Assembly (NCBI RefSeq): GCF_029023865.1
Contig: NZ_CP118969.1
Span: 558,001 to 622,000 of the forward strand
DNA length: 64,000 bases
Direction of reading: 5' to 3'
Source: Lactococcus lactis
GTDB taxonomy: Bacteria; Bacillota; Bacilli; Lactobacillales; Streptococcaceae
Part shown: positions 37,152 through 44,677 of the stretch, piece by piece
Numbering within the stretch: the first letter of the stretch is position 1
How the letters are laid out: each line of letters opens with the position of its first letter
Notes under the pieces: model-generated
The model's database searches: none
Seen by the model: the letters and a program-made list of their open reading frames with translations, nothing else
Told to the model about the DNA's origin: nothing
Position numbers and translations under genes: made by a program

Positions 37152-37997
37152 TTATTTTTTCATAATTCGTTGAATAATATTTTCAACAGGCTCAATTTTT
37201 TCAAGATAAGCAGAAGAGCTACCAGCCATAAATGCACCATTGATTAAATCACCTTTTTCTACTGCGGCTTTCAATGATTTATTTAAAGGATATTCTGATG
37301 AGATATTTAATAGTCTGGTCAGATGGCCATTCTTATCTGAGATTAAACTTGTTCCATTTTCTTCACCTTTGCAGATTAATTCTTGGTAAATTGGTGAAAT
37401 TTGACATTCTTTTGCCAATAAAAAGGCGGTGCCAACTTGTACTCCATTTGCACCTAAAATATTAGCCAAAGAAGCAGTATGGTGATTATAAATTCCACCA
37501 GCAGCGATGAGCGGTAAGGGACAGATTGGAGCAATTTCTTTGAGAAGTGACGCCAAGTTTTGGATCCCCACGTGACCTCCTGCTTCATTTCCTTCTACAA
37601 TGATTCCGGAGATAGGAAGTTTTAACATTTTTAGGGCAATTTCTTTATTGGGAACCACAGGGAAAAGTTTGATATTATTAGCAATTATAGTATCAATAAT
37701 TTCTTTAGGACTCCCTGCACCAGTTGTCACTACTGATATTTTTTCTTCACAAATCACTTCTAAAAGTTGCTTGATATTTTTATCGAGTAACATTAAATTA
37801 ACGCCAAAAGGCTGTGAAGTGAGAGTTTTTGTTTTTCTTATCATTCTTCTCAGTTCATTTGCTGTCCGTCCGCCGCTACCAATAATTCCCAAAGCTCCAT
37901 TGTTTGAAACAGCAGCTACTAATTCAGCATTAGAAGCCCAAGCCATTCCACCTTGAAAAAGAGGATATTTTATTCCTAATTCGTGATACCAAGTCAT
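37152..37997 (-). CDS. FabK-like enoyl reductase / nitronate monooxygenase family flavoprotein
   Basis: A 281-residue TIM-barrel flavoprotein resembling FabK. Matching features: YPLFQGGMAWASN at the N-terminus, GIIGSGG, FGVNLMLL, VVTTGAG, EGNEAGGHVG (about 135-144) and the FMN phosphate site AAGGI, then VQVGTAFLLAKE. FabK proteins are about 315-325 residues; this one is about 40 shorter in the C-terminal half, so it is a divergent paralogue. Reaction inferred: NAD(P)H-dependent reduction of an enoyl thioester. It is the last gene of the acyl-chain cluster, 23 bases after the FabG-like gene. Confidence 0.72.
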   Translation of the reverse strand: MTWYHELGIKYPLFQGGMAWASNAELVAAVSNNGALGIIGSGGRTANELRRMIRKTKTLTSQPFGVNLMLLDKNIKQLLEVICEEKISVVTTGAGSPKEIIDTIIANNIKLFPVVPNKEIALKMLKLPISGIIVEGNEAGGHVGIQNLASLLKEIAPICPLPLIAAGGIYNHHTASLANILGANGVQVGTAFLLAKECQISPIYQELICKGEENGTSLISDKNGHLTRLLNISSEYPLNKSLKAAVEKGDLINGAFMAGSSSAYLEKIEPVENIIQRIMKK

Positions 37998-38019
37998 TTA
38001 ATTCTCTTTCTATACCTTA

Positions 38020-38765
38020 TTAAAGTTTATGAAATGTAGGTTCTTGCCAATAGCCAATCTCAGAGCCGTTAACGGAAAAAATTTTGCCTGTCATTTCGCT
38101 TTCAATTAAATCAATAATAATAAAATTAGCGACATCAGAGCTTGAACCCATTTTCCATTCATCAGGGATATTCTGACCATAAGTTTCTTTTAAACTTTTT
38201 AATACTGGTAGAGTCATATCAGTTAAGGCAGCAGGAGAAACAGAATTTACTCGTATCATACTTTTTTGCAATTCTTTAGCTAGTGTTTTCGTAAAAGCAA
38301 TGATGCCGGCTTTGGACGCCGCGTAGTTTGCTTGCCCAAAGTTACCAAATAAAGCTGATTTTGAAGTTAGTGTAATGATTTGTCCACCTTGATTGATTTT
38401 ATCAAGCAAAGCGTGAGTACTATTAAATACACCAGTCAAATTGACAGAAATGACTTCATCCCAAATTTCTGGGCTCATTTTCTTAAAAGTACTATCAGCA
38501 GTAATTCCAGCATTATTAATTAGAATATCAATATCCTTTATTAATTTGGCTGCATTAGCAACGCTAGAGCGATTAGAAACATCTAGTGGAATAGCTTGGA
38601 TTTCTGTTTTGGGAAATTTTTTTTCAATTCTTCAGCTCTACTTTTTAAACTAAGTGGGTCACGGCCAGTTAAAATGACTTTGTGATTGGCCTGAGCAGCT
38701 TTCTGAGCAATTGCCCAGCCGATTCCCCTTGTTGCACCGGTAATCAAAATTGTTCGTTTGTTCAT
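38020..38765 (-). pseudogene. FabG-like 3-oxoacyl reductase (SDR), frameshifted in an A8 tract
   Basis: Two pieces in different frames make one short-chain dehydrogenase of about 248 residues. The 5' piece (from ATG 38765, AAGGAG ten bases upstream) has the NAD(P) motif TGATRGIG. The 3' piece has NNAG (in the restored frame), the SDR catalytic YAASK motif and the C-terminus. The break is at 38617-38624, eight Ts on the plus strand (A8 in the coding strand). Adding one A restores the frame through KNFPKTEIQAIPLDVSN. The gene could be dead, phase-variable, rescued by slippage, or a sequencing artefact. Confidence 0.8.
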
Positions 38766-39055
38766 TGCTTCCATTCTCCTTTTAGGATTAATGTTTGATT
38801 TCTGTCAGTAATTTGAAAAGCGTTTTGATTAAATATAAAACAAAAGCGTTCATTCAAATAGGCTGGTGAGCAGAAATTTGCTTTTAAGTATGATAAAGGC
38901 ACAGAATAGAACTCTTGATACATCTCTTCTAAAATAAATAATAAAAAATTTCCAGGTATAATGGGATTTTTACCGTAGTGTAAAGAATTGGTATCTTTAA
39001 CTGATTGAAGATAATCAATTAAATCAGCCTTATTGATTTTTTTGTATAATTTCAT
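38762..39055 (-). CDS. Small MaoC/FabZ-like hot-dog protein
   Basis: A 97-residue protein with the layout of the catalytic half of MaoC-type (R)-hydratases: DTNSLHYGKNPIIPGNFLLF (about 22-41) resembles the D-x-N-x-x-H...P-I-x-P-G active-site loop, and SPAYLNERFCF resembles the following hot-dog strand. Inferred role: dehydration of a 3-hydroxyacyl thioester. It overlaps the upstream gene by 26 bases and the FabG-like gene by four, so it is part of a tight operon. The family assignment is by eye and needs a profile search. Confidence 0.55.
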   Translation of the reverse strand: MKLYKKINKADLIDYLQSVKDTNSLHYGKNPIIPGNFLLFILEEMYQEFYSVPLSYLKANFCSPAYLNERFCFIFNQNAFQITDRNQTLILKGEWKQ

Positions 39056-39380
39056 TCCAGGAATCCTCAGATAATAGACTTAGGTTAATTTGTGCCAATA
39101 ACTTTGTATTGCTAGTTATTTCAAGACTTAGATTGATTATATATTTTTTTGAATGACGAGTGATGTGTTCACTTAGTAAATAAAGTTTCAGTTTATCAAA
39201 TGAATAATTAGAAGATGGATAGCGAATAATTTCTTCGGATAGTAACCAATTTTCTCCATTTTTAAGACTGTAGGGAATTCCTTCTAATTCTTGCCACAAT
39301 TGTGGAAGTAAGGAGAGAAAATTTTTTTGGCCCTCTAATTTAAAATGTCTTGGAAGACTTTTTTGAGCGATTAAAATCAT
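39030..39380 (-). CDS. Unrecognised small protein, possible second hot-dog subunit
   Basis: A 116-residue protein between the thiolase and the MaoC-like gene, overlapping both (four and 26 bases). Its C-terminal half alternates hydrophobic residues in long strands (KYIINLSLEITSNTKLLAQ), as in hot-dog folds, and the size fits a non-catalytic partner of a two-subunit dehydratase. I see no active-site motif. The role is inferred mostly from position. Confidence 0.5.
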   Translation of the reverse strand: MILIAQKSLPRHFKLEGQKNFLSLLPQLWQELEGIPYSLKNGENWLLSEEIIRYPSSNYSFDKLKLYLLSEHITRHSKKYIINLSLEITSNTKLLAQINLSLLSEDSWNEIIQKNQ

Positions 39381-40525
39381 TTTTGATACCAGTGATTACC
39401 TATCAGTACACTGATTCCCATACCTCCAGCTACGCACAAAGTTGCGATGCCAAGACATGGTTTTTGCACTTGGTTTAGGCGATTTAAGAGTCGAGAAATT
39501 AGAATGCCACCAGTTGCACCGTAAGGATGACCAAATGCAAGGGCACCACCATAAGCATTTAATTTTATATCATCAAGCTTAAAATAATTTTGGAATAAAA
39601 TGGCCTGACTGGCAAAGGCTTCATTTAATTCGATAGCCTCAATATCATTAAGTTTAAGGTTAAATTTCTGTAAAAGTTTTTCAGTTGCTTTTATTGGGCC
39701 TAATAAGAAATCTGATGGAGATAAAGCAATAGTTGTTTGTCCTAAATAATAGCCTTGAAAATCAAAAGGATTATTAGTGGATGACAATATGATTGAAGAA
39801 GCACCATCGTTTATTGGGCAAGAGTTTCCAGCAGTGGCTGTTCCGTTAGTGGTAAAAGCAGGGGTTAATTTGCTCAAAGCTTCCATTGAGGATTTAGGGC
39901 GAACAGTTTGATCGCTACTTATTGTAAATTCTTCATCTTGATAGGGGAAAACTTCATTTTCTAAAAGTTTTCCTTCAATAGCTTGAGACGCTTTTTTATG
40001 ACTATTTAGAGCGTAAAGGTCTTGAACACTACGAGAAATATTGTATTTTAGGGCTGTCATATCGGCAAGTGTTCCCATGTCGAAATCTTCATAGGGTTCA
40101 GGAGCCATTTTAAATCGCTTAATTGGCTGATAACTCTCTGAATCAAGAACAATATTGGCTTGAGATGTGCTTTCTACCCCTCCTGTACAAATAATGGAAG
40201 CTTCACCAGAAATAATGTAGTTTGCAGAGCTAATCATAGCTGTCAGTCCAGAACCGCACTGCTGGTCAATTGTAAAAGCTGGGACCTGGCTAGAAAATCC
40301 TGCTTTTAAGGCACAACGTCGAGCTAAATTTCCTCCTTGATTAGTCACATTTCCCAAAATAATATAGTCAATATCAGCTTTTTTGAGAAGTGGATTTTTA
40401 TTAAACTGTTGTTTAATTATATTTTGATATAAAGTTTCAGGAGAAATTTTTTTATAAAAACCATTGATTTTTCCTATAGGTAAACGGTTTGCTGCTATGA
40501 TACCGACGGGATTTTTAAAGCTCAT
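39377..40525 (-). CDS. Thiolase (acetyl-CoA C-acyltransferase family)
   Basis: A 382-residue thiolase. The nucleophile is Cys90 (DQQCGSG), the general base histidine is in AFGHPYGATGG, and the second cysteine in LCVAGGMG near residue 371. The ELNEAFASQ motif is present. It condenses acyl-CoA with acetyl-CoA or cleaves 3-oxoacyl-CoA; direction cannot be read from sequence. ATG 40525 is chosen (AGAGGTG seven bases upstream); it overlaps the upstream ligase gene by 11 bases. It is different from a mevalonate-pathway thiolase context, since no mva genes are near. Confidence 0.88.
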   Translation of the reverse strand: MSFKNPVGIIAANRLPIGKINGFYKKISPETLYQNIIKQQFNKNPLLKKADIDYIILGNVTNQGGNLARRCALKAGFSSQVPAFTIDQQCGSGLTAMISSANYIISGEASIICTGGVESTSQANIVLDSESYQPIKRFKMAPEPYEDFDMGTLADMTALKYNISRSVQDLYALNSHKKASQAIEGKLLENEVFPYQDEEFTISSDQTVRPKSSMEALSKLTPAFTTNGTATAGNSCPINDGASSIILSSTNNPFDFQGYYLGQTTIALSPSDFLLGPIKATEKLLQKFNLKLNDIEAIELNEAFASQAILFQNYFKLDDIKLNAYGGALAFGHPYGATGGILISRLLNRLNQVQKPCLGIATLCVAGGMGISVLIGNHWYQK

Positions 40526-41756
40526 GATAGACACCTCTAAAATATTCTTTTTCTAATTCTTTTCTAGATATTTTTTGATTTTTAGTAAAATTAAGAGTGG
40601 GAGTTTCTAAATATATTTGAGGAAGTTTGTATTTAGGAAGTCTTTGAGCTAGTATTTTGATTAATTTCTCTTTCTCGATAGGATTTAAGAGTAGTAGAGC
40701 AATTTTTTGACTATATCTTTCATCAAAAACTCCAAAAGCGATGCAGTCTTCACATAAATCTTTTGCCATACGCTCAATTTCTTCTGGAAAAATTTTATTT
40801 GCACCATGCTCGATAATGTCAGACCGACGTCCAAATAAATAAAGATGATTATTTTTTAAGGTTCCTAAATCATCAGTTGTCCATGATTGTGGATAAGGTT
40901 GATTAAGATAGCCAGAAAATAAATAAGGACTTTTAACTGTAAGACGATATTTTGGTCCTAAAGTGAGCTCTACGTGTGGAAAGAGTTTTCCTACAGATGA
41001 TGTTTTTTTACCATCATTAACTGCTTGCCATGAAATAAAACTTGTTTCAGAGCTTCCATAAAACTCAATCATTTGAGTTTGCGGAAGTTTTTTTCTTACT
41101 TTATTAATTGCCTCTGGGCTGAGTGTTCCTCCACCTAAAAAAATAATCTCTGGAGAAGTTAAAGCAAATAATTCATTGAGGTTATTTAAGAGGTAGGTTG
41201 GGACGGTAAAGAGAGCATAGTTTTCCGTAATATTTATAAATTGTGAAGGATTTGTAATTGCTAGGAAGGTTTTTCCTAGATATAAAGCACACATGAGTGT
41301 ATGAAGTCCTAATGAAGTAGTGAGTGGGCTAGTAGTTGCAAGAGCTTGTGAGTTGCTCAAATGAAATAAATCATCACAAACTTCAAAACCCATTTTCCAA
41401 GATTCCCAGTTACGATAATAGATTTTGGGCGGTCCAGTTGTCCCAGATGTGCTTGCTAAGAACAAAGTATCCTCAGGGATAAGTCCGAATTCAAAAGACT
41501 TTTTCTTAAAAGATTTATCCACGACAAGTGGATAATTTCCACTTTCGATAATTGCGAGAAAATCAATAATAAAATTCAAGGGACTATCATTTATTAGAGT
41601 AATAACAGTTTTAGAGGAGTGGCTATAATCTGTTAATTTTCTTTGTATTAAATCATTGATTTGTTGGTAGCTATATGAAATTTCGTCTATTTTAAGAGCT
41701 GGATAATCAGTAAAAAGTGCGGCCAGTTTTGAAAAATTAAATTTATTTTTTTCCAT
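40515..41756 (-). CDS. Acyl-activating (AMP-forming) synthetase, ANL superfamily
   Basis: A 413-residue adenylating enzyme, short for the family (usually about 500). The phosphate-binding loop TSGTTGPPK is at 103-111, the YGSSET A5 motif near 230, D-D-L-G and GRRSDII in the hinge, and the C-terminal catalytic lysine in NQKISRKEL. It makes an acyl-CoA (or acyl-ACP) from a free acid and ATP. Similar in context to B. subtilis YhfT. First gene of the minus-strand acyl cluster, divergent from bioY. Ribosome site AAGGA nine bases before ATG. Confidence 0.83.
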   Translation of the reverse strand: MEKNKFNFSKLAALFTDYPALKIDEISYSYQQINDLIQRKLTDYSHSSKTVITLINDSPLNFIIDFLAIIESGNYPLVVDKSFKKKSFEFGLIPEDTLFLASTSGTTGPPKIYYRNWESWKMGFEVCDDLFHLSNSQALATTSPLTTSLGLHTLMCALYLGKTFLAITNPSQFINITENYALFTVPTYLLNNLNELFALTSPEIIFLGGGTLSPEAINKVRKKLPQTQMIEFYGSSETSFISWQAVNDGKKTSSVGKLFPHVELTLGPKYRLTVKSPYLFSGYLNQPYPQSWTTDDLGTLKNNHLYLFGRRSDIIEHGANKIFPEEIERMAKDLCEDCIAFGVFDERYSQKIALLLLNPIEKEKLIKILAQRLPKYKLPQIYLETPTLNFTKNQKISRKELEKEYFRGVYHEL

Positions 41757-41789
41757 CTAAAATTTTCCTTTGTGTGAATAAAAAAGCAA

Positions 41790-41795
41790 ATAATA
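41790..41795 (-). promoter_or_regulatory. Candidate -10 of the acyl cluster
   Basis: TATTAT on the minus strand, about 33 bases before the ligase ATG. The matching -35 position falls inside the BirA-like dyad. Confidence 0.35.
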
Positions 41796-41803
41796 AAATT
41801 AAC

Positions 41804-41833
41804 AGTTAACCTAAACTTGATTTTAGGGTTACT
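41804..41833. promoter_or_regulatory. BirA-operator-like dyad between the acyl cluster and bioY-birA
   Basis: AGTTAACC (41804-41811), 14 bp, GGGTTACT (41826-41833). This matches the spacing and half-sites of the Firmicutes BirA signal (GTTAACC-N14/16-GGTTAAC) with one or two changes in the right arm. It covers the likely -35 of bioY and lies at the -35 region of the divergent cluster, so bound BirA could repress both. Confidence 0.65.
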
Positions 41834-41850
41834 ATTTGATATGATATCAG

Positions 41851-41856
41851 TATAAT
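41851..41856 (+). promoter_or_regulatory. bioY -10 box
   Basis: TATAAT; the -35 position 17 bp upstream (41828-41833) lies inside the BirA-like dyad. Confidence 0.6.
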
Positions 41857-41900
41857 AAAAAATTCTTTTATTGTAAAATATAAAATCAGGAGTAGCAAAT

Positions 41901-42470
41901 ATGACTAAGAATCAAAAAGTCAAAACATTAACGTATTCAGCCTTTATGACTGCATTTATTATTATTCTAGGATTTTTACCAGGAATACCAATTGGTTTTA
42001 TTCCTGTCCCAATTATCTTGCAAAATATGGGAATAATGATGGCTGGGGGACTTCTTGGCCCCAAATATGGTACAATTTCGGTAGGAGCATTTCTTACTTT
42101 AGCTTTAATTGGCTTACCTGTTTTAACGGGTGGAAATGGCGGAGCAGCGAGCTTTTTAGGGCCTTCGGGAGGCTACCGAATGGCTTGGCTTTTTACACCA
42201 TTTTTAATAGGTTTTTTCCTTAAGAAATTGCAAATTACAGCTTCAAAGAATTGGATTGGAGAATTAATCATTGTTTTAGTGTTTGGAGTTATTTTTGTTG
42301 ATCTAGTCGGAGCAATCTGGCTATCTATTCAATCTAATATTCCATTAATTACTTCGTTGATTTCTAATTTAGTTTTTATTCCTGGTGATTGTATCAAAGC
42401 CATTTTGACTGTTCTTATCGTGCGACGTCTTAGAAAAGAAGGAGGCTTTGAAATGTATTTTAGAAAGTGA
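41901..42470 (+). CDS. bioY: Biotin transporter BioY (S component)
   Basis: A 189-residue membrane protein with about six TM segments. Family features: IPVPIILQNMGIMMAGGLLGPKYG and the GPSGGYRMAW motif (about 91-100). It captures biotin, alone or as the substrate-specific part of an ECF transporter. Its stop overlaps the beginning of birA by four bases, so importer and biotin sensor are one unit, under a BirA-like operator. Confidence 0.93.
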   Translation: MTKNQKVKTLTYSAFMTAFIIILGFLPGIPIGFIPVPIILQNMGIMMAGGLLGPKYGTISVGAFLTLALIGLPVLTGGNGGAASFLGPSGGYRMAWLFTPFLIGFFLKKLQITASKNWIGELIIVLVFGVIFVDLVGAIWLSIQSNIPLITSLISNLVFIPGDCIKAILTVLIVRRLRKEGGFEMYFRK

Positions 42471-43447
42471 TAATTATGCGAACAACAAAACAATTTGTCT
42501 TGTTAAAACTTCTTCAACAAAAAGGAAACTGGGTTTCGGGTGATGAATTAGCTGAGGAGCTAAAGCTTAGTCGAGAAAGTATCTGGAAAGCAATTAATAC
42601 TTTAAAGCGCAAGGGCAATCAAATCGAAAGTCGTAAAAATTTGGGCTATAAGTATGTTGGAAATAATTCATTAGATGAAGATACGATAAATTTTTATAGT
42701 GGAATGAAATTTGAAGATAAAATTTTTGTTTTTGATGAGGTGACTTCTACGCAAGAGTTAGCGAAGCAATATTTGTCTTCACATGAGGTCAAACAACCTC
42801 TTATTTTTGTTGCAAATAATCAAACGGAGGGACACGGTCGGCGTGGCCGAAATTTCTATTCTCCAAGTGATACTGGATTATATTTTAGTATTATTTTACC
42901 CAACCCCAGTCATGATATTTTGAAAATAGGATTATTGACGACAAGTACGGCTGTGGCCGTTGTCAAGGTCCTTGAACAATTTTATAAAGATAAAAACTTT
43001 CAACTCAAATGGGTTAATGATATTTATTTGGGGACCTATAAAGTTGGCGGAATTATCACTGAAGCTGCTTTAGATTTAGAATCAAGCTCTGCTGGAAATT
43101 TCATTATGGGAATTGGCTTAAATCTGTCAACAAAAGATTTTCCAGCAGATTTATCCGAAAAGGCTCAGGGAATAAATCCTGAGTTTAAGATAGACAGAAA
43201 TCAGCTTTTAGCAGAAATGGCTAAAGAAGTGATAAATAATTTCGCAAATTATAGACAGCCAGATTTAATTGATGAGTATCGAAAGAGGTCATTGTTGTTT
43301 GGTAAAAATGTGACTTTAAAATTGGGAACAAAAGCTGTTAATGGACAAGTAGAAGGAATTTCTGATGACGGAAGCTTGATTTTAAAAGCAAAATCAGGAG
43401 AATTACAAACTTTTAAAAGTGGCGAAGTTGTGAAAGTTGATTGGTAA
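42467..43447 (+). CDS. birA: Bifunctional biotin--[acetyl-CoA carboxylase] ligase / biotin operon repressor
   Basis: A 326-residue protein. An N-terminal winged helix (about 5-60; SGDELAEELKLSRESIWKAINTLKRKG) shows that it can bind DNA. The ligase domain has the biotinyl-AMP loop GHGRRGRNFYSP (about 122-133) and KWVNDIY near 180. The C-terminal SH3-like domain ends the protein. It attaches biotin to acetyl-CoA carboxylase and, when biotin is plentiful, represses biotin genes. The first in-frame ATG is at 42467; a second at 42476 is possible. Confidence 0.93.
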   Translation: MIIMRTTKQFVLLKLLQQKGNWVSGDELAEELKLSRESIWKAINTLKRKGNQIESRKNLGYKYVGNNSLDEDTINFYSGMKFEDKIFVFDEVTSTQELAKQYLSSHEVKQPLIFVANNQTEGHGRRGRNFYSPSDTGLYFSIILPNPSHDILKIGLLTTSTAVAVVKVLEQFYKDKNFQLKWVNDIYLGTYKVGGIITEAALDLESSSAGNFIMGIGLNLSTKDFPADLSEKAQGINPEFKIDRNQLLAEMAKEVINNFANYRQPDLIDEYRKRSLLFGKNVTLKLGTKAVNGQVEGISDDGSLILKAKSGELQTFKSGEVVKVDW

Positions 43448-43463: not shown

Positions 43464-43769
43464 TTGCGAGAAAAAATCTGGGGGAAAGTGATAGATGAGG
43501 AAGGCAGGTGTACTCATTATCATCAAGAAAATGATATTGTCGCCCTAAAATGTTCAGACTGTGAAAAGTATTTTTCTTGTTATCATTGTCACGATGAATT
43601 AGAGAATCATTTATTTAGGGCTACTGATAAAGAAGACTTTCCAGTACTTTGTGGCCATTGTGGAACAAAATTAAATTTTAATGATTATTCGCGAGGAGAG
43701 TGTATCAAGTGCAGCTCCGCTTTTAATCCAAATTGTCATCGACATTGGCAAGTTTATTTTAATGAATAG
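43464..43769 (+). CDS. CHY-type zinc finger protein
   Basis: A 101-residue cysteine- and histidine-rich protein: CTHYHQ near the start, then CxxC (CSDC), CYHC, C-G-H-C and C-I-K-C pairs, the ligand pattern of the CHY zinc finger. The start is TTG 43464, with AAAGGTGA about seven bases upstream. It is 16 bp after birA and may be transcribed with it. Function unknown; bacterial members are small stand-alone zinc proteins. Confidence 0.8.
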   Translation: MREKIWGKVIDEEGRCTHYHQENDIVALKCSDCEKYFSCYHCHDELENHLFRATDKEDFPVLCGHCGTKLNFNDYSRGECIKCSSAFNPNCHRHWQVYFNE

Positions 43770-43804: not shown

Positions 43805-44461
43805 ATGTTATTTACTGAATTAGCAAGAGAAAAATCATCAATATTTTGGGAAAGAAGTTTTGAGCATCCTTTTATTCAAGGATTAGTGAGTGGAGAATTA
43901 GCTCCTGAGGTTTTTCGCTATTATTTGTTGCAAGACCGTTATTATCTTGAACATTTTAGTAAGTTATATTTTCTTATTGCCAAGAAATCTGCTAGTGAAG
44001 AGATTCAAGCGCATTTAAGATTAAATGCCGAAGAACTAAAAAATGGAGAGATTTTTGTTCGCGAGGGATTTTTTAAAGAATTAGAGATTGGTGAACAAGA
44101 AATTTTAGAAACGCCGGTTGCTCCCACTGCTTATCATTATGTTTCTCATATGTATCGTCAGCTTATTGATGGCTCTGTTAATAGTGCAATTGCGGGAATG
44201 TTGCCTTGTGCTTGGCTATATCATGAAATTGGTTTACGATTAATTAAGGTGGGGTCGCCCAATCCTTTGTATCAAAAATGGATTGAAACCTATGCGAGTG
44301 AAGAAGCTACCGTCCAAATCGCAAAAGAGTGTGATATTATTAATCGGCTTTATCAAGAAAGTGATGAACAAGAGCAAGAACAGATGCTTGAGGCTTTTTT
44401 GATTAGTAGTAAAATGGAGGCTGATTTTTGGGAAATGGCTTTGGTCTTAGAAAAATGGTAG
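43805..44461 (+). CDS. tenA: TenA family thiaminase II
   Basis: A 218-residue helical enzyme that recovers the pyrimidine part of thiamine breakdown products (aminopyrimidine aminohydrolase). The catalytic cysteine is Cys135 in MLPCAWLYHEIG, the conserved YYLLQDRYYL region is at 39-48, and the C-terminal glutamate in SSKMEADFWEMA is present. No thiamine riboswitch is visible upstream. It may be the end of the bioY-birA transcript (35-bp gap to the CHY gene). Confidence 0.9.
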   Translation: MLFTELAREKSSIFWERSFEHPFIQGLVSGELAPEVFRYYLLQDRYYLEHFSKLYFLIAKKSASEEIQAHLRLNAEELKNGEIFVREGFFKELEIGEQEILETPVAPTAYHYVSHMYRQLIDGSVNSAIAGMLPCAWLYHEIGLRLIKVGSPNPLYQKWIETYASEEATVQIAKECDIINRLYQESDEQEQEQMLEAFLISSKMEADFWEMALVLEKW

Positions 44462-44569: not shown

Positions 44570-44583
44570 ATATTTATCCTTAT

Positions 44584-44598
44584 AGGAAAGCGTTTACC
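44584..44598 (+). promoter_or_regulatory. Candidate cre (CcpA) site over the small-RNA start
   Basis: Thirteen of 15 positions fit WTGNAANCGNWNNCW, with core AAAGCGTTTAC. It sits at about +9 to +23, a position for repression by CcpA. Confidence 0.5.
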
Positions 44599-44649
44599 TA
44601 AAAGTCATGGTTACGTAAATAAGCTATAGCGAGTAGCTTAATTTCTTTC

Positions 44650-44677
44650 AAATCCCTCCTAGTCAGGGGGATTTTTT
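44650..44677 (+). terminator. Terminator of the candidate small RNA
   Basis: AAATCCC / GGGATTT with loop of 11 bases and six Ts. Confidence 0.75.

Follow-up and report, generated by a model that had tools for sequence, protein, structure and literature searches.

A BirA-linked, putative acyl-CoA elongation gene cluster next to the biotin importer gene bioY of Lactococcus lactis and its possible role in biotin scavenging

The stretch of Lactococcus lactis DNA analysed here (64,000 nucleotides; NCBI RefSeq assembly GCF_029023865.1, contig NZ_CP118969.1, positions 558,001 to 622,000), called the window in the following, carries six enzyme genes on the minus strand next to the biotin genes bioY and birA (Table 1). 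They code for an AMP-forming acyl-coenzyme A (acyl-CoA) ligase, a thiolase, two small hot-dog proteins termed P3 and P4, a FabG-like short-chain dehydrogenase/reductase (SDR) and a FabK-like enoyl reductase. An earlier note, made from the sequence alone, had described them as six tightly overlapping genes divergent from bioY-birA. The divergence is as described, bioY and birA both lying on the plus strand. The tight overlap holds for a part of the cluster: five genes are open and there are four overlaps, of 20 (ligase/thiolase), 4 (thiolase/P3), 26 (P3/P4) and 13 bases (P4/SDR), whereas the SDR gene consists of two open reading frames (ORFs) and the FabK-like gene starts, without overlap, 22 bases past it. 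The sole solved-structure match of the window BioY was BioY 4dve, which is of the L. lactis type (6.9e-110).

Table 1. The enzyme cluster and the flanking biotin genes, with positions in the window.
Feature	Position	Strand	Basis
AMP-forming acyl-CoA ligase (LIG), 413 aa	40515-41756	minus	PF00501, 1.5e-18
Thiolase (THL), 385 aa	39377-40534	minus	TIGR01930, 411 bits, above cut-off
P3, HadA-like hot-dog dehydratase subunit, 116 aa	39030-39380	minus	Orthologues, profile
P4, MaoC/HadB-like catalytic hot-dog dehydratase subunit, 97 aa	38762-39055	minus	Orthologue, profile, Foldseek
FabG-like SDR, frameshifted, probably L. lactis fabG2	38020-38774	minus	ORFs 38583-38774 and 38020-38478
FabK-like enoyl reductase, 281 aa	37152-37997	minus	Aligns with solved FabK chains
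BirA operator between the divergent genes	41802-41835		32/34 bases identical to IL1403 bioY1 site
bioY, S component of biotin energy-coupling factor (ECF) transporter	41901-42470	plus	PF02632, 3.8e-36
birA, biotin protein ligase with N-terminal helix-turn-helix (repressor)	42467-43447	plus	HTH_11, BPL_LplA_LipB, BPL_C
CHY zinc-finger gene next to birA, putative member of the system	43464-43769	plus	PF05495

Related loci were collected with the ligase as the query. The 80 best of 225 confirmed loci were analysed, which are not a random sample; the ligase is present in all 80 by construction, the window genome's own records were possibly left out, and the stretch in which genes were counted began 3.5 kb before the ligase start and ended 9.5 kb behind it. 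The thiolase was found in 75 loci, P3 in 63, P4 in 65, the SDR in 64 and FabK in 46, bioY in 57, the ECF genes EcfA1, EcfA2 and EcfT together in 45, and the CHY zinc-finger gene in 20. Ligase, thiolase, P3, P4 and SDR occur together in 62 of the 80 loci (45 of these with FabK, 48 with bioY and 37 with ECF genes). The ECF genes frequently lie between the SDR and FabK genes, and in many genera the enzymes are found inside a BioY-ECF operon. The linkage with bioY for which the earlier note had suggested a neighbourhood survey is thus seen in 57 of 80 scanned stretches, and since the gene order is common to many genera, the cluster as a whole is, judged by this comparison of sequences, beyond chance.

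Within the genus an orthologous thiolase (E 1e-100) was present in one of 18 genomes, namely the window genome. In the family, 66 of 147 genomes had some thiolase match, and when the best 30 matches were placed, at least six cluster members were found in the window genome and in G018, G053, G041, G027 and G020. Four Paenibacillus loci (L100, L109, L110 and L125) have the ligase with BioY-ECF and no adjacent thiolase; at E 1e-60 no thiolase was found in three of these four genomes, and one at 43% identity in the fourth. The ligase, still beside BioY-ECF in the three Paenibacillus genomes, thus appears to be tied to the transporter. In the Lactococcus-related genus of G041 the cluster (L007, 465-1390) is perhaps decaying. 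Ligase-thiolase pairs in metagenome-assembled genomes (MAGs) labelled Bartonella (L142, L145, L147 and L148) have possibly been transferred.

The BirA-like dyad that had been noticed between the divergent genes is real. It is identical in 32 of 34 bases with the published BirA1 site before bioY1 of L. lactis IL1403, and BirA1 of this strain binds the bioY1 promoter in gel shifts, according to excerpts of Zhang et al. 2016 (PMC4861984). By its score against the generic consensus alone the dyad would be within chance, as this score was reached by 18 of 300 mononucleotide shuffles. A BirA box of at least 14/18 was present upstream of bioY or the ligase in 61 of the 80 loci, compared with 4 of 309 control regions (upstream regions of other ORFs from the same loci), and where the ligase was taken as the first gene, it was preceded by a box in 16 of 26 loci. 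Operator match and box counts together bear out the biotin linkage and the predicted BirA control claimed before. For L. lactis strain IO-1, yseC, yseD, fabG2 and yseE appear among the predicted BirA targets in the part of PMC7051946 consulted, which names neither a pathway nor a substrate for them. Going by the gene order, these would be the genes of P3, P4, the SDR (broken in the window) and the FabK-like reductase.

The ligase contains the motifs TSGTTGPPK, YGSSE and TDDLG and the C-terminal lysine of NQKISR, to which we assign their presumed functional meaning, and the thiolase contains CGSG, NEAF, GHPYGATG and CVAGGMG; the patterns for the thiolase C-terminus and the ligase hinge matched either too little or too much to be counted. 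The closest solved relatives of the ligase are o-succinylbenzoate- and fatty-acid-type ligases, with modest scores. The NCBIfam models PRK07638 and PRK06690, which we take to be of the yhfT/yhfS kind, rank best or second-best, PRK07638 being the best model for the ligase; the window proteins are not members by cut-off (ligase, 140.5 bits with a cut-off of 518; thiolase, 269.2 bits with a cut-off of 498). In a tree of 75 cluster thiolases and 28 others, cluster and ordinary thiolases were split with a support of 0.836, and the three "other" thiolases on the cluster side (L005, L007 and L009) are cluster members. A second thiolase of the window genome (L049) adjoins genes which were read as mevalonate genes.

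For the window P3 and P4 there was no Pfam match and no meaningful NCBIfam match. In Paenibacillus anaericanus (L094) their orthologues by position matched PF13452 FAS1_DH_region (P3, 3e-8) and PF01575 MaoC (P4, 4.8e-14). Alignments were made of 33 sequences each, hand-picked from those at hand and without the P3 of L141. In P4, Asp21, His26 and Gly35 are invariant in all 33, so that the catalytic Asp and His expected in the MaoC-type subunit of a HadAB-type enzyme are present. The P4 profile found the (R)-specific enoyl-CoA hydratase 1iq6 at 2e-11 and HadB at 3e-8; the P3 profile found HadA at 9.3e-5, and a multicystatin at 1.9e-4 which looks like a chance match. These profile searches agree with the hot-dog nature assigned to both small proteins from the sequence alone, P3 being HadA-like and P4 MaoC/HadB-like. 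Models predicted for each chain alone had a mean pLDDT of 88.1 (P3) and 95.9 (P4). 1iq6 was again the top Foldseek match of P4 (E 3e-5, TMq 0.80), and the matches of P3 were weak and mixed, with a thioesterase first (8.3e-4) and HadBD next-best (1.3e-3). Because its orthologues match FAS1_DH_region and its profile matches HadA, we prefer a dehydratase subunit to a thioesterase for P3, which is a preference and not a proof. P3 and P4 would then form a heterodimer. In a Streptococcaceae MAG (L091, 9647-11422) the ligase is naturally fused to a P3-like hot-dog domain; P4 follows, and there is no thiolase.

The two ORFs of the window SDR do not share a frame, and an intact, related SDR can be aligned first to one and then to the other; the earlier note did not mention this frameshift. 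The break may be peculiar to the strain or may stem from the sequencing. All 62 cluster SDRs and the C-terminal piece of the window SDR have the catalytic Ser-Tyr-Lys. FabG binds the acyl carrier protein (ACP) by Arg129 and Arg172 (E. coli numbering), according to passages of PMC13293336. Counted in the cluster SDRs alone, these arginines are present in 5 and 4 of 62, respectively; the window SDR has Gln and Ser. The same passages describe one Xanthomonas FabG, FabG2, which is active without both arginines. The window SDR is probably L. lactis FabG2, since bioY1, fadA and fabG2 have near-consecutive gene identifiers and fabG2 is on the list of BirA targets. L. lactis FabG2 is described in the excerpts of PMC4861984 and PMC13293336 as having no ketoacyl-ACP reductase activity, with which the scarcity of the ACP-binding arginines is in line; alternatively, the inactive FabG2 could be a defective protein. 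Solved FabK chains align with the FabK-like protein (best 7.9e-59), which scores below the cut-off of TIGR03151 (263.2 bits, cut-off 453.1).

With the hot-dog proteins as HadA-like and MaoC/HadB-like dehydratase subunits, the enzymes would make up one coherent turn of reverse beta-oxidation of the (R)-type. The classes thiolase, ketoreductase, dehydratase and enoyl reductase are all encoded, the SDR with its frameshift. The earlier reading as a full reductive acyl elongation turn therefore stands, every enzyme class being present by sequence. The DNA itself shows the enzyme classes, the key residues, the order of the genes and the operator. Plain fatty-acid degradation was rejected as a function, as it had been before, because the reductase is of the FabK-type and there is no acyl-CoA dehydrogenase among the annotated cluster genes (the whole genome was not searched).

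One proposed use for such a turn was the synthesis of pimeloyl-CoA, the biotin precursor, such as by the extension of a C5 diacyl-CoA with acetyl-CoA. The chemistry would be possible and the cluster is predicted to be biotin-regulated. However, neither BioF (best 24.9 bits, cut-off 426.45) nor BioB (20.8 bits, cut-off 225) was found above cut-off in the window genome. In a first set of 18 genomes BioB was above cut-off in 6 and BioF in none, about 4 of these genomes having their thiolases in frames of more than 800 aa and thus probably being no cluster genomes. Fifty of the 80 locus genomes were tested as well: BioB passed in 22 and BioF in 3; BioF-type matches below cut-off were seen in 13 more, two of them within 8 bits (425.5 and 419.0). 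Of the 295 genomes in the P. anaericanus family, 37 have the ligase (E 1e-150) and 144 have BioB, and the two nearly exclude each other (both, 2; ligase only, 35; BioB only, 142; neither, 116; Fisher p 1.9e-9). Related genomes are not independent in this survey, at most five candidates were scored per genome, and the 37 include genomes with the ligase only. In other groups (Trichococcus, Viridibacillus and Kurthia) the cluster coexists with BioB. By these profile scores, what the cluster genomes have in common is that they have no confident BioF. A role in making pimeloyl-CoA would require an unrecognised replacement of BioF; with no BioF and BioB in the window genome and BioF in only 3 of 50 cluster genomes it is highly improbable, and for the window genome it is largely refuted.

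The biotin side chain is shortened by beta-oxidation, and the product that is one turn short is bisnorbiotin. A possible interpretation, to which we give a probability of about 0.38, is a function in biotin scavenging: as a module repressed by BirA, the cluster would elongate acyl-CoA and so extend a shortened biotin catabolite. Organisms that import biotin and lack its full synthesis would thereby rebuild the valeryl chain of beta-oxidised catabolites, using BioY-ECF and acetyl-CoA. The ligase would activate a carboxylic acid that BioY takes up together with biotin or in the same way, and the thiolase would add acetyl-CoA to the activated acid. The SDR would then form the (R)-3-hydroxyacyl-CoA, the P3-P4 pair would dehydrate it, and the FabK-like enzyme would reduce the enoyl-CoA. 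The most economical substrate would be bisnorbiotin, in which the valeryl side chain has been cut by beta-oxidation and which one turn would convert to biotinyl-CoA and then to biotin; tetranorbiotin would need two turns. Hydroxy- or dehydro-biotin might also be taken up and, as a speculation, incomplete clusters could act on forms that are less degraded. Direction, carriage on CoA and not on ACP, substrate, product and release step are what we infer. Because of the frameshift in the SDR, the route may be impaired in the window genome or may rely on a different reductase. According to the excerpts of PMC12673392 and PMC9106636, bisnorbiotin has been reported from human milk, where it is called inactive, and from serum and urine. 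The extension of an imported acid by two carbons fits the data best.

Several observations weigh against biotin side-chain repair. There is no thioesterase in the cluster to release biotin, and the SDR is broken in the window genome. The ACP-binding arginines are commonly missing among SDRs in general. The thiolase-free loci (the four of Paenibacillus and L091) fit a strict one-turn scheme poorly, and the loci with ligase and thiolase only (Leuconostoc and the Bartonella MAGs) would require other enzymes; those of Bartonella are also without bioY and BirA box in the scanned stretch. In L007 the frames are shortened (SDR 135 aa, P3 82 aa). No BirA box was found at the threshold in 19 of the 80 loci, i.e. 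in all five of Leuconostoc, all four of the Bartonella MAGs, two of Trichococcus, three of Paenibacillus, and one each of Lysinibacillus, Peribacillus, Psychrobacillus, Floricoccus and Listeria grayi. Finally, according to a passage of PMC9106636, biotin metabolites could not be determined by microbial assays, so that the assay organisms were probably not users of these compounds.

The same module could instead elongate another acid, imported or internal, which is needed at low biotin and is not a biotin derivative. The sequences name no substrate, the solved relatives of the ligase with their o-succinylbenzoate- and fatty-acid-type activities would suit this, and clusters without adjacent bioY keep the BirA box (the 16 of 26 ligase-first loci). 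Yet the association with the BioY and ECF genes is tight, and we regard another acid as a rather doubtful substrate. The second role put forward in the earlier note was a biotin-sparing lipid route, in which chains are elongated with acetyl-CoA instead of malonyl-CoA when low biotin disables acetyl-CoA carboxylase. All enzymes of the cycle are indeed encoded, low-biotin induction is predicted from the BirA site, and the cluster genomes mostly lack complete biotin synthesis. This idea is weakened because FabG2, which the window SDR would be, is reportedly inactive on ACP substrates, and the ACP-binding arginines are absent from nearly all cluster SDRs. Priming with acetyl-CoA needs no ligase, some genomes keep the ligase without the thiolase, and transporter genes are interleaved with the enzyme genes. 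Thus the cycle enzymes of this proposal are present, but the reported inactivity of FabG2, the ligase and the BioY-ECF context make it unlikely.

A once-working module could also be in the course of being lost in the window strain. The frameshift of the SDR, the single orthologous thiolase among 18 genomes of the genus and the shortened SDR and P3 frames of L007 speak for a decaying remnant. On the other hand, the other five genes are open, the checked motifs of ligase, thiolase, P4 and FabK are present, and the break may be restricted to this strain or to its sequencing; IL1403 has fabG2 among its listed genes. Decay is improbable, too.

On the other side of the operator, the CHY zinc-finger gene that follows birA was found in the related loci exclusively together with an ECF module (20 of 20 loci), in the biotin operons of Paenibacillus and relatives. 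It is followed, on the strand of bioY-birA, by a gene for a TenA-like product (43805-44461), a candidate by eye for thiamin salvage. The L. lactis RNA family LLnc147 is matched at 44576-44677, barely above the gathering score (127.6 versus 127).

The combination of an acyl-CoA ligase and a thiolase under BirA is likewise known from yhfS-yhfT of S. aureus and bioY(yhfU)-yhfT-yhfS of B. subtilis. The S. aureus yhfS-yhfT promoters are repressed by biotin via BirA according to the parts of PMC6391492 at hand (see also PMC7235819 and PMC11089781). The window cluster adds the dehydratase pair, the SDR and the FabK-like reductase, and its likeness to these genes comes from the models, whose cut-offs are not reached, and not from the yhf sequences themselves. 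P3 and P4 resemble HadA and HadB of the (3R)-hydroxyacyl-ACP dehydratase, and P4 keeps the Asp and His; compared with HadA/HadB and the (R)-hydratase PhaJ they are shorter, stand in a biotin context and probably act on CoA substrates. With reverse beta-oxidation the cluster shares the four enzyme classes and differs from it by the BirA control, the ligase, the (R)-type dehydratase, the FabK-type reductase and the link to a vitamin importer.

In the open-licence literature we found no pathway assignment for the whole cluster and no bacterial salvage of bisnorbiotin; papers of this kind on bisnorbiotin or on malonyl-CoA-independent synthesis yielded nothing on the cluster. In the literature found, no role has been assigned to L. 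lactis fabG2 or to the ligase-thiolase genes that are under BirA control in Firmicutes. A complete, conserved module beside a biotin importer turns this into a single testable question. If its substrate is a biotin catabolite, the cluster would be a salvage route for a form of the vitamin that has been described as inactive, and this would have consequences for the exchange of biotin in milk, soil and gut.

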